Shown here in pieces: positions 1,832 to 25,611 of a DNA stretch of 53,842 bases (within the stretch, counting starts at the first letter, position 1; every line of letters begins with the position of its first letter). This DNA comes from Candidatus Peregrinibacteria bacterium. Lineage in GTDB: Bacteria > Patescibacteriota > Gracilibacteria > UBA1369 > JABINC01. The notes below the pieces were generated by a model. That model worked only from the letters and a program-made list of their open reading frames with translations. It ran no database searches and was not told the DNA's origin. The stretch is from assembly GCA_030700255.1 (NCBI GenBank), contig JAUYJN010000004.1:1-53842 (forward strand). The letters are read 5' to 3'. A program made the translations under genes and the position numbers.

Positions 1832-1940
1832 CACTGCATCTTGTGTTGACAGAGGTGTCTACATACTACATTTTGGTCTATTTAATGTTGCAATAGAAAA
1901 GATTGTTATATAAACTCATTGTGGGTGAAAAATATTGAGC

Positions 1941-1980
1941 AAAAGGGGCTTTGATCGCAAGATCAGGCCTTTTTTGTTTG
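1941..1980 (+). terminator. intrinsic terminator after the sigma factor
   Basis: A G/C-containing stem (arms about 1943-1956 and 1961-1971, with G-T wobbles and one bulged T) closes on a GCAA tetraloop at 1957-1960. It is followed by the T-run TTTTTTGTTTG. This separates the sigma gene from the DUF881 operon promoter that starts immediately downstream. Confidence 0.75.
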
Positions 1981-2039
1981 TCTATAGACACCGGTAGACA
2001 AAGTTTTGCACAATACTTACTTTAGCGTTAAGATGTCTA
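1979..2039 (+). promoter_or_regulatory. DUF881 operon promoter with TGTCTA operators
   Basis: The promoter is -35 TTGCAC (2006-2011), 17-bp spacer, -10 TAAGAT (2029-2034). A perfect palindrome TGTCTATAGACA lies at 1979-1990, a half-site TAGACA at 1995-2000, and TGTCTA at 2034-2039 overlaps the -10. Another TGTCTA is at 1856-1861. The 17-mer TAGACAAAGTTTTGCAC at 1995-2011 recurs exactly at 4418-4434, upstream of the GH18-like gene. The arrangement suggests repression or activation by the regulator encoded at 3466-4266. Confidence 0.6.
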
Positions 2040-2072
2040 TTGTCTGATATATTTATATTATCAAGGCTATTG

Positions 2073-2810
2073 ATGAGGTCGACTATCACAATTACATTTT
2101 TGTTTCTAATGGCCGGAGCCTTGATTGGTGTGCTTTTTAGCACCCAGTTTACAGAAAACCTCCTAATCCCCGGTTCACACCCAACCGAGGTGATAGAAGC
2201 TCAGCATGAGCTCGTTATGCTGTATACTGAGGAACAGGGTGTGCTCAAGAGCCAAATTACAAACCTCCGTTCTTCTATCGCTGATCTGCAAGAACAAAAT
2301 TCATATTTTATACCAACGGAAGAGCAAAACAAATTAAATAAAATTAAATCGGATCTTGGGCTTACACAAATCACCGGCCCCGGGATCGAAATAATTTTTG
2401 AAGACTCCCCTACCGTAAATCGTCCAGAGCTCGATGTAAATAACGATGCACTAATACACGCCGCCGATCTAAGAGATTTGACCAATTTGATATTTTCTAC
2501 AAATACCAAGGGAATTGCCATAAACAACCAGCGTATAATATTTAGCTCCCCTATCAATTGCGTAGGCAATACGATCCTTGTAAATAACTTTAACATGCTT
2601 CCACCATTTACAATTTCAGTTGTCACCGATAATCCAACTGAGATATTGCGGCTTCTTACTGATGACAAACTACTTTTTGATATATACAGAAGGGTAGAGG
2701 ATCATGGTATTGTGCTAAAATTTCAAGCCAAAGATTCAATTTCACTTCCACTATATAATGGGAATTTTAGAACGGATAACCTGGCGAAAATTACAGAAAT
2801 ACAACAATAA
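2073..2810 (+). CDS. DUF881-family membrane protein, first of pair
   Basis: The ATG at 2073 has AAGG 6 nt upstream and lies downstream of the predicted transcription start. A TTG at 2040 would give 11 more residues but overlaps the promoter, so it is rejected. The product has one N-terminal membrane segment (TFLFLMAGALIGVLFS), a coiled coil (about residues 45-80) and a C-terminal domain typical of DUF881 (ITGPGIEIIFEDSP, then GIAINNQRI). Members in Firmicutes are small membrane proteins (YlxW/YlxX) near division genes; their biochemical role is not settled. It is 12 nt upstream of a second DUF881 gene and almost certainly co-transcribed with it. Confidence 0.85.
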   Translation: MRSTITITFLFLMAGALIGVLFSTQFTENLLIPGSHPTEVIEAQHELVMLYTEEQGVLKSQITNLRSSIADLQEQNSYFIPTEEQNKLNKIKSDLGLTQITGPGIEIIFEDSPTVNRPELDVNNDALIHAADLRDLTNLIFSTNTKGIAINNQRIIFSSPINCVGNTILVNNFNMLPPFTISVVTDNPTEILRLLTDDKLLFDIYRRVEDHGIVLKFQAKDSISLPLYNGNFRTDNLAKITEIQQ

Positions 2811-2822
2811 TTATCTATAAAA

Positions 2823-3464
2823 ATGGGTTCAAAGGAATACAAACAGTTAAAGCCTCTTCTCATAATAGTTGGAGCCCTATGCGGATTTTTTATAGTTTTG
2901 CAATTTCGCTCTTTTAAAGAAGTTGAAAATATAGTTCGTGATAGCAATGCAAATAATATTTTTCGTGAAATACAGGTTTTGAAACTTACAAACGATGAGC
3001 TCAAACAAGAAATTGTCGAACTGACTCTCGAATTAGAAAATCTGACGGATGGGCGTTCATTTCTAGAATCTATTCGTACGGCACTTGAGAAAAACAGAAT
3101 CATCGCCGGGCTAACAACTGTGCAAGGCCCCGGGATAATGATGACATTGGATAAAAAGATTGATACGTCATGGCTTGTAGATACGCAAAACGAGCTATGG
3201 ACAGCAGGGGCCGAGGCTATCGCAGTAAATGGTATTCGGCTTTCGCCGTATACCAAAGGGTTTGAAAATTTCAACGGACAGATTTATTTAAATAAAGTCC
3301 CAATTCGTGTGCCATACAAAATAGAGGCCATAGGTAATGCGGATGTATTGGTGAAAATACTGGTACAGCAAGGATCTATCTCCGCTCGCATCTCAAATGT
3401 TTACCCTGGTATCAAAATAAATGTCAGTCAAATTGACAGTATTACAATGAATGCCGTTAGATAA
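2823..3464 (+). CDS. DUF881-family membrane protein, second of pair
   Basis: The layout matches its upstream neighbour: a membrane segment at about residues 10-27 (PLLIIVGALCGFFIVLQF), a coiled coil at about 35-80, then the DUF881 core with VQGPGIMMTLD and EAIAVNGIRLSP. The two proteins are similar but clearly diverged, so this is an old duplication that may form a heteromeric envelope complex. That last point is inference. The gene ends 1 nt before the convergent regulator gene ends, with no obvious terminator between them. Confidence 0.85.
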   Translation: MGSKEYKQLKPLLIIVGALCGFFIVLQFRSFKEVENIVRDSNANNIFREIQVLKLTNDELKQEIVELTLELENLTDGRSFLESIRTALEKNRIIAGLTTVQGPGIMMTLDKKIDTSWLVDTQNELWTAGAEAIAVNGIRLSPYTKGFENFNGQIYLNKVPIRVPYKIEAIGNADVLVKILVQQGSISARISNVYPGIKINVSQIDSITMNAVR

Positions 3465-3465
3465 C

Positions 3466-4266
3466 CTATTTACTCATCAACCAGATAATTGGCTGCAAAA
3501 CTATCAATGAGATTGCTAGGATTGCGAAAATCCATTTATTGAGCTGCTCGCTCTGCACCAATCGACGAGCTTTTTTGAGTTGGATCTCACGCTTTTCTAT
3601 TTGCACCTTTAGGCCGGATTCAAGTTTACGAAATTGCTCCTTCTGCTTTCTGTATTCAAGCATAGGAATCATAGACTCTATTTGAGCCTCAAGTTGCCCT
3701 ACTTTGTAATTTGCCGACTCTATGCGCTTTTGGTTCAATCTGTGTTCTTCTTTTAGTTCCTCATATAGTTTCTGATAAATCCCCTCAGAATAATAATATG
3801 CAAACTGAGAAGATGAATTTTGCGGGGCGTACGGAGTCATGCTTGGAGCGGTGTTTTGAGCAATGTGTAACGGCCGAATCACAACATTTTCTTCGATTTT
3901 GTCATTGTGCAAAACTTGTTTTCCAAGAAGTGACAACACCTTTTCCTGCGTCTCAGTCAATGACGACCCCGTGTCTACTTTGTCTACATCGTGTCTACTC
4001 GTGTCTATATTGATTATACCATGATTTTCGCCAGTTTCTAGGCCCTGATGTTGTCTAGTCGAATCTTCGAGGACACCTTGCTCACGAGCCTTCTTAAACA
4101 TCCTAACCTCCTCTTCATCTAGCCAAATACGGCCATTCACCTTTCGGCTATACAAACGCTTATTTTTCACGTGTCTATCGAGTGTTCTTTGACTAATTGA
4201 CAAAATATCAGCAGCCGCCTGCCTGTCTATCCTCCCATCCATGTTTTGTCTACTTTGTCTACTCAT
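3466..4266 (-). CDS. membrane-anchored MerR/BldC-like DNA-binding regulator
   Basis: An N-terminal helix-turn-helix with a following wing (RQAAADILSISQRTLDRHV, then GRIWLDEEEV) resembles the excisionase/MerR/BldC group. A variable linker follows, then a coiled coil (about 150-235) and one C-terminal membrane helix (WIFAILAISLIVLQPIIWLM) ending in SK. A DNA-binding head on a tail-anchored stalk suggests a membrane-tethered regulator. Its own promoter and coding DNA contain many TGTCTA sites. The first eight residues (MSRQSRQN) are encoded by the operator repeats themselves, so the ATG at 4242 is an alternative start. It converges on the DUF881 pair and diverges from the GH18-like gene. Confidence 0.72.
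   Translation of the reverse strand: MSRQSRQNMDGRIDRQAAADILSISQRTLDRHVKNKRLYSRKVNGRIWLDEEEVRMFKKAREQGVLEDSTRQHQGLETGENHGIINIDTSRHDVDKVDTGSSLTETQEKVLSLLGKQVLHNDKIEENVVIRPLHIAQNTAPSMTPYAPQNSSSQFAYYYSEGIYQKLYEELKEEHRLNQKRIESANYKVGQLEAQIESMIPMLEYRKQKEQFRKLESGLKVQIEKREIQLKKARRLVQSEQLNKWIFAILAISLIVLQPIIWLMSK
3972..4007. promoter_or_regulatory. phased TGTCTA array inside the regulator gene
   Basis: Four head-to-tail TGTCTA elements begin at 3972, 3981, 3992 and 4002, that is 9, 11 and 10 bp apart, roughly one helical turn each. They encode the residues DTSRHDVDKVDTG of the regulator on the minus strand. Single copies also lie at 4052, 4172 and 4224 in the same gene. Confidence 0.5.
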
Positions 4267-4288
4267 GTCTACTCGTGTCTACATTATA
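4247..4288 (-). promoter_or_regulatory. regulator promoter with phased TGTCTA array
   Basis: TGTCTA begins at 4247, 4256, 4266 and 4276 on the plus strand (spacing 9, 10, 10 bp). A minus-strand TATAAT occupies 4283-4288, so transcription would begin inside the array, close to the ATG at 4266. No good -35 is seen. The layout fits direct autoregulation. Confidence 0.6.
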
Positions 4289-4390
4289 TAATACAATATT
4301 TTTAAGGAAGTGCCACCACCTATCTTGCAGACATTTTACCACACCTTTTTGGATTGGCAAATAAAGAGTGTAACAAAGGGTGTGACACTC

Positions 4391-4482
4391 TTCTATAGAC
4401 ATGTCAATAGACGTCTATAGACAAAGTTTTGCACCGCCAACCTAGACATGTCTACTTATTCTTTGTACAGTTAGTCTGTCTA
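4391..4482 (+). promoter_or_regulatory. GH18-like gene promoter region with TGTCTA sites
   Basis: Half-sites TAGACA or TGTCTA occur at 4396, 4418, 4443, 4449 and 4477. The pair at 4443-4454 forms the palindrome TAGACATGTCTA. The 17-mer at 4418-4434 is identical to the one at the DUF881 promoter and supplies the same -35 TTGCAC (4429-4434). The -10 here is poor (CTACTT at a 17-bp spacer), which suggests activator dependence. Confidence 0.55.
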
Positions 4483-4506: not shown

Positions 4507-5535
4507 ATGCATACTTTTCTGAAAATTTGCTCCAAGATACTTATCCTCCTACTTGTGCTCGGGTTACTTGCGCTTGGGTTAATAAAATATTTTGTATTTG
4601 GAGTTCATACAAATATCAAAGCCGACATCGGACTCAAAAAAACAAACGCTGTATGGATGGCTCATGAATGGGTGCAAATAAAATCTCCGAATGAAAAGGT
4701 TCACACCCTACTTTCTGAAATGATAAGTAATGACATTTCACTTATATTCCTACATACAGGGCCAATAGGGGATGATGGCATCATACCGGAGTCTCGTTAT
4801 CCGGAGGCTAAAAGGTTCTTGGAGATGTCCAAAAGCTTTGCTCCGGATATGAAATTTCACGCTTGGATAGGGCAGGTACGCAACGAATTACATATCGAGA
4901 ATCCGGAAATCCGACAAAATATTATCAAAGATTCAATTCACTTAATCAAAGACATCGGTTTTGATGGAATTCATCTAAATATAGAACCTATGCAGTCAGA
5001 CCCTGATTTCGCACTACTTATCTGGGAGTTACGTCGAGAATTTGAAGCAGAGGGGGTTCCGGCGGAGCTCTCTGCAGCAATCAGCCCCATAGTGCCGGAA
5101 TTGCCGATAAAGGCTCTTAAACTGATCTCCAAAGACTCATTTCTTGGCCATGATCTATCCCTCAACTATAGCAGCCTAAAATACACAAAAGAAATAGCAG
5201 GAAACCTCGACTACGTCGTTATGATGAGTTATGACACAAGCTTTAAAGATCTTAAACTTTATAAATGGTTCATGGAGCAAGAGCTTATATTTTTACTCAA
5301 AGTAGCTCCTGGCAAAGCGCTCATGGGGATCCCATCTTACGAAGATGTCCGCAATAATTTTGATTCCAATATAGAGAATGTAAGTACCGCCATAGATGGA
5401 GTGAAAATCGGACTGCAAAATATACGTACAAACCCTGACGATCTCATAGGCCTCGCTATCTATGCCAGATGGACAACAGATAAATCAGAATGGAAGACCT
5501 GGCGCGAAAAATGGCTTGGAGTAGTTAGCCGTTAA
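4507..5535 (+). CDS. membrane-anchored GH18-like glycoside hydrolase fold protein
   Basis: An N-terminal membrane anchor (residues 8-30, ILILLLVLGLLALGLIKYFV) precedes a TIM-barrel-like domain. Residues near 152-160 read FDGIHLNIEP at the place of the GH18 signature DxxDxDxE: the first Asp and the catalytic-position Glu are kept, while the two middle Asp are His and Asn. VVMMSYDTSF matches the GH18 Met-x-Tyr-Asp strand. It may cut or bind a glycan outside the membrane, but the altered signature leaves activity uncertain. It lies 17 nt upstream of ybeY and shares operator sites with the DUF881 operon. Confidence 0.68.
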   Translation: MHTFLKICSKILILLLVLGLLALGLIKYFVFGVHTNIKADIGLKKTNAVWMAHEWVQIKSPNEKVHTLLSEMISNDISLIFLHTGPIGDDGIIPESRYPEAKRFLEMSKSFAPDMKFHAWIGQVRNELHIENPEIRQNIIKDSIHLIKDIGFDGIHLNIEPMQSDPDFALLIWELRREFEAEGVPAELSAAISPIVPELPIKALKLISKDSFLGHDLSLNYSSLKYTKEIAGNLDYVVMMSYDTSFKDLKLYKWFMEQELIFLLKVAPGKALMGIPSYEDVRNNFDSNIENVSTAIDGVKIGLQNIRTNPDDLIGLAIYARWTTDKSEWKTWREKWLGVVSR

Positions 5536-23709: not shown

Positions 23710-23790
23710 AATTATTGAGGAATGTCTAAATGTGTCTATTGTTCTCAACTTATCATTTTGTTAAGCTCGCTGAGGTTCTTATATTAAACA

Positions 23791-25611
23791 ATGACAACTT
23801 TAGAAAAAATTCAGGTTTTGGTGCAGCGCGCGCTTGAAGATTCGAGCCTCTGGGAGGGTTTAAAAAGCTCTGGGATGAGCGATTTTCAAATACACATCGA
23901 ATATCCGCGCGAGGCTCTACACGGAGACTATGCGACAAATGTCGCTATGCAGATAGCAGCACCTCTTGGGAAAAACCCTCGAGAAGTTGCTGAGATTTTG
24001 GTAGAGGCTATTTTGAAAACTGACGGCGTTGAAAAAATTATAGATGGCACTCCGGGGATTGCAGGGCCCGGATTTATAAATATTCGTGTGAAAAATGAAG
24101 TGCTTATTGATTCTATCAAAGATGCTGTCGAAAGAGGTGATAAATTTGGCAATTCAGAAGGCTTGGGAGGGCAAAAAATAATGCTGGAATTTGCACACCC
24201 AAACACCCATAAAGCGTTTCATATAGGGCATTTGCGCAATATCTGCCTTGGTGAATCTTTGGTAAGATTTTTGGAGTCACAAGGTGCTCATGTTTTCCGT
24301 GCCAACTACCAAGGTGATATCGGTCCGCATGTAGCAAAATGTATATGGGGTATGAAAAATATGCCTGAAAAGGATGGGCTCAGCCCTGTTCATAGCGAGA
24401 TTGAGGCGAGGGAGCTTGAGTCTAATTATCTAACTTCGCCAGAGCGCAAAGTTGAATATCTTGGTGCTGCCTATGCCTTCGGCGGCAAAGCGTACGAATC
24501 CGACAAAGACGGTTCAAAAGGAATTCAGGCTGAAATCAAAAAAATTAACATGCAAATTTACAAAAAAGACCCTGCTATCATGCCACTATGGGAAGTGACT
24601 CGCCAATGGAGCTTGGATTATTTTGATTACACGTATAGCCGCCTCGGTAGCCGTTTTGACCACTTATTTTTTGAAAGCCAAATGTACGAGCGAGGGGCTG
24701 AAATTGTAAAAAAATATATGGGGAAGATTTTTGAAGAATCAGATGGGGCGATTGTGTTCAAAGGTGAAAATTATGGACTACACACTCGTGTTTTTATCAC
24801 AAGCGAAGGGAATTCAACCTATGAAGGCAAAGAACTTGCTAATGTCGAGACACAATACGGCGTTTGGAATTTTGATAAAATCGTACATATAGTTGCAAAT
24901 GAACAATCCGGATATTTCAAAGTTGTATTCAAGGCTATAGAGCTCATTGAGCCAAAATTTGAAGGAAAGCAATTTCATGTCGATTACGGAATGGTGAAGC
25001 TTTCTTCTGGGAAAATGTCGAGTCGCACCGGGGACATTGTCACGGCGGAGAGTTTGATCGATGATGCCAAAACAAAAATAATGGATATCTTAAATGAAAA
25101 CATAAAGTCCGGGAGTTCACATTTAAGCGAATCAGAAAAAGAAGACGTCTCAGAAAAAGTCGCTATAGGAGCGGTGAAATTTACCATGCTTCATGCCGAT
25201 TCCAAAAAAGATATCGCTTTTGATATGGAGCAATCCCTCAAACTCACCGGAGATAGCGGGCCTTATTTACAATACGGATATACTCGTATAGCTTCGATTT
25301 TGAAAAAAATCGAAGGACAGTCAGGAGATGCTGATTTTTCACAATTCAATGATTTGGACTGGACCCTTGCTAAGCAAATACTTAGGTTCGAAGAAGAAGT
25401 AACGGCTTCTGCAAACGAGCTCACGACTCACAATACAGCTCATTATTTGGTCAGTCTCGTAGCTGATTTTTCTCGTTGGTATGAGAACAACCGCGTGGCT
25501 CAAGCCGAAGCCGGACTGCTCAGCGCTAGAGTTGAACTCCTAAAAGCAATTCAGAACGTACTCGCAAACGGACTTTATCTGCTCGGTATTGAAACTGTTG
25601 AGAGAATGTAA
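23791..25611 (+). CDS. argS: arginyl-tRNA synthetase
   Basis: ArgS charges tRNA-Arg with arginine using ATP. The N-terminal additional domain shows HGDYATNVAM. The class I signature is present as HPNTHKAFHIGH (HIGH at about 143-146), followed by RANYQGDIGPHV. KMSSRTGD at about 408 is the family's KMSK variant. The C-terminal anticodon domain ends with NGLYLLGIETVERM. The length of 606 is slightly above the usual 550-590. tRNA-Ser follows after 72 bp. Confidence 0.97.
   Translation: MTTLEKIQVLVQRALEDSSLWEGLKSSGMSDFQIHIEYPREALHGDYATNVAMQIAAPLGKNPREVAEILVEAILKTDGVEKIIDGTPGIAGPGFINIRVKNEVLIDSIKDAVERGDKFGNSEGLGGQKIMLEFAHPNTHKAFHIGHLRNICLGESLVRFLESQGAHVFRANYQGDIGPHVAKCIWGMKNMPEKDGLSPVHSEIEARELESNYLTSPERKVEYLGAAYAFGGKAYESDKDGSKGIQAEIKKINMQIYKKDPAIMPLWEVTRQWSLDYFDYTYSRLGSRFDHLFFESQMYERGAEIVKKYMGKIFEESDGAIVFKGENYGLHTRVFITSEGNSTYEGKELANVETQYGVWNFDKIVHIVANEQSGYFKVVFKAIELIEPKFEGKQFHVDYGMVKLSSGKMSSRTGDIVTAESLIDDAKTKIMDILNENIKSGSSHLSESEKEDVSEKVAIGAVKFTMLHADSKKDIAFDMEQSLKLTGDSGPYLQYGYTRIASILKKIEGQSGDADFSQFNDLDWTLAKQILRFEEEVTASANELTTHNTAHYLVSLVADFSRWYENNRVAQAEAGLLSARVELLKAIQNVLANGLYLLGIETVERM

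Follow-up and report, generated by a model that had tools for sequence, protein, structure and literature searches.

In Candidatus Peregrinibacteria, the gene for a predicted membrane-anchored winged helix-turn-helix (wHTH) protein carries a dense array of the hexamer TAGACA/TGTCTA, located partly beside the gene and partly within its coding sequence. We consider it somewhat probable that the protein, held at the membrane, binds cooperatively to the many sites of this element at the gene encoding it, which would provide feedback control of a local kind. The array was studied in a stretch of 53,842 nucleotides (contig JAUYJN010000004.1, positions 1 to 53,842 of the forward strand), which we refer to as the window, and which contained the following features.

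3466..4266, minus strand: open reading frame (ORF) of the regulator, 266 amino acids, with predicted MerR-type wHTH, disordered linker, long helix and C-terminal transmembrane (TM) segment
4081..4233, minus strand: part coding for the predicted winged HTH, residues 12-62 (AlphaFold2 pLDDT above 90)
3808..4080, minus strand: part coding for the predicted disordered linker, residues 63-153, which bears in-gene sites (pLDDT 41-55 over most of it)
3472..3807, minus strand: part coding for a single long helix predicted by AlphaFold2, residues 154-265, with a hydrophobic C-terminal segment at about 3481-3540
3972-4007, plus strand: array A, four TGTCTA starting at 3972, 3981, 3992 and 4002 (spacing 9/11/10)
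4247-4281, plus strand: array B, four TGTCTA starting at 4247, 4256, 4266 and 4276 (spacing 9/10/10)
4052-4057, plus strand: single TGTCTA in the ORF
4172-4177, plus strand: single TGTCTA in the ORF
4224-4229, plus strand: single TGTCTA in the ORF
4396..4482: five sites in the divergent intergenic region between the regulator and GH18 genes (4396 minus, 4418 minus, 4443 minus, 4449 plus, 4477 plus)
1856..2039: second local group of five sites (1856, 1979, 1985, 1995, 2034), between a sigma-70 gene and the DUF881 pair
4507..5535, plus strand: divergent neighbour, GH18-like protein (Pfam PF00704, E=6e-13)
2040..3464, plus strand: two DUF881 genes, convergent with the regulator gene (Pfam PF05949)

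An earlier note on this DNA had described two arrays of four TGTCTA sites with spacings of 9/11/10 and 9/10/10 bp in or at the regulator gene, and the exact positions agreed with that description. The sites of both arrays are on the plus strand and read TAGACA in the direction of the regulator gene. Array A lies entirely within the ORF, in the stretch coding for linker residues ~87-99, while array B spans the listed ATG (4266) at the start of the ORF. An in-frame ATG at 4242 is a possible alternative start, and if this is the one used, array B lies entirely upstream of the ORF. Tandem Repeats Finder reported both arrays as imperfect 10-mers, and an Rfam search gave no matching element. The window as a whole contained 30 TGTCTA, only a modest excess over the chance mean of 21, of which 21 were located within 1856-4482 (2.6 kb). 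With 16 sites in 700 bp, TAGACA clustered locally far more strongly than any other hexamer of the window (log10 P of about -18 after correction for windows; Poisson probability of ~1e-26 relative to the remainder of the window). It was also noted that one more phased TGTCTA pair, about as many as expected by chance, is present at 23723-23738, upstream of a large ORF (23791-25611) that looks like an arginyl-tRNA synthetase gene.

The comparison set consisted of 67 distinct Peregrinibacteria loci, each examined between positions -500 and +350 relative to the HTH start, 56 kb in total. These regions contained 618 sites, or 11.0 per kb, versus 0.27 per kb in the flanking DNA. TAGACA/TGTCTA was the top hexamer identified de novo, with 618 occurrences versus about 16 expected (40-fold) and presence in 66 of the 67 loci, and the next hexamers in rank were its own extensions GTAGAC, CTAGAC, and ATAGAC. 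TCGACA and TGGACA were also raised at the loci, and the -35-like sequence TTGACA was raised less. In the distant members L057, L157, L179, and L116, TCGACA or GTCGAC was raised in place of or beside TAGACA, hinting that the motif and the protein change together. The array accompanied the regulator gene whether the divergent neighbour was a gene for an FG-GAP/SLH, GH18, TrmH/SpoU, YbeY, or unrelated protein, and the cluster in the divergent intergenic region was conserved. Judged by this comparison of loci, the array is real and ancient, and its association with the regulator gene is conserved throughout the order. Arrays A and B resemble each other, as they would if they had arisen by chance or by tandem-repeat slippage in a single genome. 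We give this explanation hardly any credence, and it is refuted by the enrichment of the same hexamer at the orthologous gene across the order, where it is clustered at the regulator gene in both orientations and with variable spacing. The distant members L177, L175, L179, L119, L056, and L154 contained 0 to 2 exact sites, and a changed motif (TCGACA, TGGACA) was only partly visible in them.

About 40% of the sites were located inside the ORF, mostly in the part coding for the disordered linker. Resampling of synonymous codons, based on the codon usage of neighbouring genes and with the peptide held fixed, gave an expectation of 36.9 +/- 5.5 in-gene sites, whereas 253 were observed, a sevenfold excess. 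The HTH-coding part contained 68 sites versus 11 expected and the linker-coding part 185 versus 26. Because the in-gene sites exceed the synonymous-codon expectation, the DNA, and not the protein alone, is by this measure under selection in the coding part. Furthermore, the dipeptides VD and MS, which correspond to GTAGAC and ATGTCT read in one frame, were 9-fold enriched in the linkers of the family. The true excess is probably larger than the resampling figure, since the test fixes a peptide that is itself enriched. The amino acid composition of the linker (VD, MST, MSID) seems to be dictated by the DNA sites inside the gene, a clear case of overlapping selection. Within the genus of the window, the in-gene arrays differed in order and orientation, with four direct sites in genome G000 and two sites on one strand and four on the other in genome G001, which indicates turnover of the individual sites within a cluster that itself persists.

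The upstream direct repeats are helically phased. Same-strand pairs upstream of the gene in the 67 loci peaked at 10-11, 22, 33-34, and 44 bp, and direct pairs at 9-12 bp numbered 89 versus 29.9 under the null (maximum 48 in 1000 reshuffles), with direct, head-to-tail pairs making up a fraction of 0.86 of all upstream pairs at this distance. The amplitude at a period of 10-11.5 bp was 0.63 versus a null maximum of 0.20 (1000 reshuffles); the null treats the loci as independent and they share ancestry, so that the significance is overstated while the effect size is unaffected. Inverted pairs were also common, at an offset of 6 (TGTCTATAGACA) and an offset of 4, and a perfect palindrome TGTCTATAGACA is present at 1979 in the second site group. 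The head-to-tail arrangement emphasised previously was thus borne out as a strong preference at one helical turn, but inverted pairs of the type TGTCTATAGACA and sites embedded in coding sequence are equally characteristic of the element.

The architecture proposed in the earlier note for the regulator, a winged HTH followed by a long coiled-coil helix and a C-terminal membrane segment, was upheld as a prediction from AlphaFold2 and hydropathy. A helix of 112 residues was predicted by AlphaFold2 at the site where the coiled coil would be situated. Each of the 67 distinct homologues had a hydrophobic C-terminus (hydropathy of 2.0-3.0 over 19 residues, within 12 residues of the end), and for this reason the protein is predicted to be tail-anchored in the membrane. 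In Pfam, HTH_17 was found in 27 of 27 family members scanned, and it was the sole match of the window protein, although below the cut-off (E=5.6e-4). The Pfam matches of the window protein thus included neither the C-terminal effector-binding domain of classical MerR regulators nor DUF536, which is present in RocS and Par. A profile search of solved structures placed RacA first with a weak E-value of 0.07, and RacA was also first in a Foldseek search with the wHTH model (E 7.6e-3), which additionally returned BldC (6ama/6amk; TMq 0.71 for 6ama_B), Xis, RdfS, GlnR, and the wHTH of pSK1 Par (8csh). The E-values of the fold matches were weak, the best being 7.6e-3, as expected for a domain of 61 residues.

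BldC of Streptomyces, with which the regulator had been compared previously, has a MerR-like wHTH, and its molecules line up head to tail on direct repeats that vary in number and lie about one turn apart (PMC5859096), a spacing that the DNA sites at the regulator gene also show. The comparison holds in that BldC was among the best fold matches. However, BldC is a soluble protein of 68 residues that has neither a coiled coil nor a membrane segment; its regulon is genome-wide and its 9-bp repeats are AT-rich, whereas the regulator has the predicted 112-residue helix and TM segment and no regulon of many promoters. The architectures of RacA, RocS, and pSK1 Par appear to be closer.

RacA of Bacillus subtilis, the best profile and fold match to the regulator wHTH, combines a wHTH with a coiled coil. 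RacA gets to the pole through DivIVA, and its sites are spread over the nucleoid, whereas those associated with the regulator are at one locus. RacA binds centromere-like repeats (PMC11500499), and it does so as a symmetric dimer (PMC5859096). RocS of Streptococcus pneumoniae and Par of the Staphylococcus plasmid pSK1 have an N-terminal MerR-type wHTH, a coiled coil, and C-terminal membrane attachment, the last of these demonstrated for RocS and suggested for Par (PMC11500499); for the regulator, an N-terminal MerR-type wHTH, a long helix, and a C-terminal membrane segment are predicted in the same order. RocS, a membrane-bound wHTH/coiled-coil protein, is needed for chromosome segregation in the pneumococcus (PMC11500499). 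Unlike these proteins, the regulator is predicted to have a hydrophobic TM segment rather than an amphipathic helix, as well as a long disordered linker, and there is a single conserved array in and beside its own chromosomal gene. Excisionases of the Xis/RdfS type (HTH_17/TIGR01764) belong to the same wHTH superfamily and oligomerise on repeats (PMC11963761), but no integrase, att site, or mobile element was seen at the regulator gene, and its neighbourhood is vertically conserved.

The regulator protein was found in 88 of 99 genomes searched from the same genus, order, and class, and on this count the family is near-universal in the order. Named records of the family were almost all from Candidatus Peregrinibacteria or Gracilibacteria. 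Some members were present in class-level relatives, and a phylum-wide draw returned full-length members from the same order only. The remaining matches spanned the HTH part alone, and the ones looked at proved to be different proteins whose genes had no TGTCTA cluster, for which reason an extension of the family beyond the order was rejected. A single-sequence scan of viral contigs revealed no relatives, and a viral or mobile origin was likewise rejected on this basis and on the vertical conservation of the neighbourhood. The literature searched contained no description of a DNA-binding regulator or a protein for chromosome positioning from Peregrinibacteria, and no mention of the TGTCTA/TAGACA motif.

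The regulator gene was mostly divergent from a set of neighbours coding for FG-GAP/SLH-like surface, TrmH/SpoU-like, GH18, and YbeY proteins and convergent with two DUF881 genes, with MurI and GuaA beyond, and the DUF881 cluster adjoined it in 41 of the 67 loci (neighbour clusters 2, 4, 5, 6, 8, 9, and 10 were named by inspecting the sequence rather than by family search). A sigma-70 gene is located at 734-1831 of the window, on the far side of the two DUF881 genes. The sister genome L061 lacks DUF881 and has a run of several ORFs of the sigma-70 cluster downstream of the regulator. The conserved envelope-type genes around the regulator, and the presence of sites before DUF881 and GH18 in the window, are what would be expected if the protein acted on TGTCTA operators in the promoters of these genes and of further envelope genes, in line with the compact envelope regulon of the earlier note. 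Several results make such a regulon quite improbable. Site densities per 200 bp before the genes were 0.17 for DUF881 (80 genes, with 5 of the 14 sites coming from this window), 0.15 for GH18 genes not abutting the regulator, 0.18 for MurI, and 0.05 for YbeY, that is, about background for all four unless the gene abuts the regulator, and the site group at 1856..2039 was not conserved at DUF881 promoters elsewhere. The genome scan for phased TGTCTA pairs, which had been put forward as a check, placed 7 of the 8 pairs in the 1.37-Mb genome of the window at the regulator locus, with no genome-wide spread; the genome-wide counts for this genome are based on pair patterns, not on each single site. 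Perfect palindromes were also largely at the regulator locus. In the complete genome of a relative (G052, HGW-Peregrinibacteria-1, 998,424 bp, the same contig as L129), the sole cluster of at least 4 TGTCTA within 700 bp was at the regulator gene. A genome-wide regulon was therefore rejected, and since the promoters of the neighbours are at background unless abutting, the array belongs to the regulator gene.

One genus contained a second TGTCTA cluster: immediately before ftsA-ftsZ, a 5'-nuclease-like gene carries 7 sites within a stretch of about 400 bp (L211:15386-16170, corresponding to ~175.4-176.2 kb of G041:C1; also in L222, L223, and L224). A link to cell division through this cluster was rejected, as it is limited to that genus and was absent from the other genera examined.

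The simplest explanation of these results is that the protein binds its own gene region at the membrane and exerts feedback there. The array would be the element to which the wHTH protein binds, its gene overlapping the array, and copies of the protein would be dimerised by the predicted coiled coil and fixed to the membrane by the C-terminal helix. The protein would bind cooperatively to a number of sites that ranges from several to almost 20, located between the divergent genes and in the first third of the coding sequence, with neighbouring wHTHs one helical turn apart and head to tail, as in BldC, and with some sites occupied as inverted pairs. The resulting nucleoprotein patch would bring the DNA to the membrane and exert feedback on the promoter of the protein itself, and it may also control the divergent gene where the two abut. 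Against this account, the 10-19 sites, many of them deep in the coding region, exceed the needs of ordinary autoregulation, the distant members have 0 to 2 exact sites, and the 67 loci, which come from genomes derived from metagenome assemblies (MAGs), share ancestry and are not independent. The family occurs almost throughout the order, and its putative target, defined by sequence, occupies essentially a single place in each genome, so that DNA binding tethered to the membrane can be tested directly here.

A partition or anchoring system would likewise be expected to have an array of this size, lying partly in coding sequence, and a protein with this order of domains. In the main rival reading, it is conceivable, though we hold it to be doubtful, that the protein pins the single array locus to the membrane as a centromere-like tether and so positions or segregates the chromosome, with autoregulation as a by-product. 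Autoregulation is usual for partition loci. The many sites of mixed orientation, the single cluster per chromosome in the complete relative, the near-universal presence in the order, and the first rank of RacA in both searches fit such a tether, as does the match in architecture to RocS, RacA, and pSK1 Par, all of which are segregation or partition proteins (PMC11500499). The ParB N-terminal domain (ParB_N, PF02195) was absent from the regulator protein in Pfam and was found neither in genome G000 nor in 15 of 22 genomes tested, but its presence in the other 7 leaves no clean pattern of replacement. The locus was not beside dnaA in any of the 22 genomes, dnaA being on another contig or far off, and the GC skew did not change sign over the locus and for the most part held its sign on six contigs, 240-313 kb in length. 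A position at the origin or terminus is therefore not supported, nor is an origin-linked centromere, but a tether elsewhere is conceivable. We regard a one-protein anchoring system of Peregrinibacteria, in which one centromere-like site, lying within and next to the gene of a tail-anchored wHTH protein, is held at the cell membrane by that protein, as a tentative reading; if it is true, the stretch of the gene that codes for the disordered linker also contains the sites to which the protein binds.

Self-binding with feedback also presupposes that the regulator is the binder. The phased direct repeats, together with the inverted repeats, resemble iterons, and the complete relative has a one-directional GC skew, so that a different factor might instead bind the array, which could for instance be a replication element of the iteron type, with its position at the regulator gene being structural. 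This is unlikely, considering that array and wHTH gene occur together at almost every locus, that no replication-initiator domain was found in the regulator protein in Pfam, and that no DnaA-box cluster was present at the locus in the complete relative or in the window. The GC skew of the relative, a single contig of 998 kb (G052:C1, PGYE01000001.1, loci L062-L111) with genes on both strands, never switched sign and lay between -0.22 and -0.37 in all 50-kb bins. One-directional GC skew has been reported for some Microgenomates, and Peregrinibacteria were stated to be typical (PMC7143001). The skew of this relative resembles the Microgenomates case, which suggests one-directional replication or a matter of assembly.
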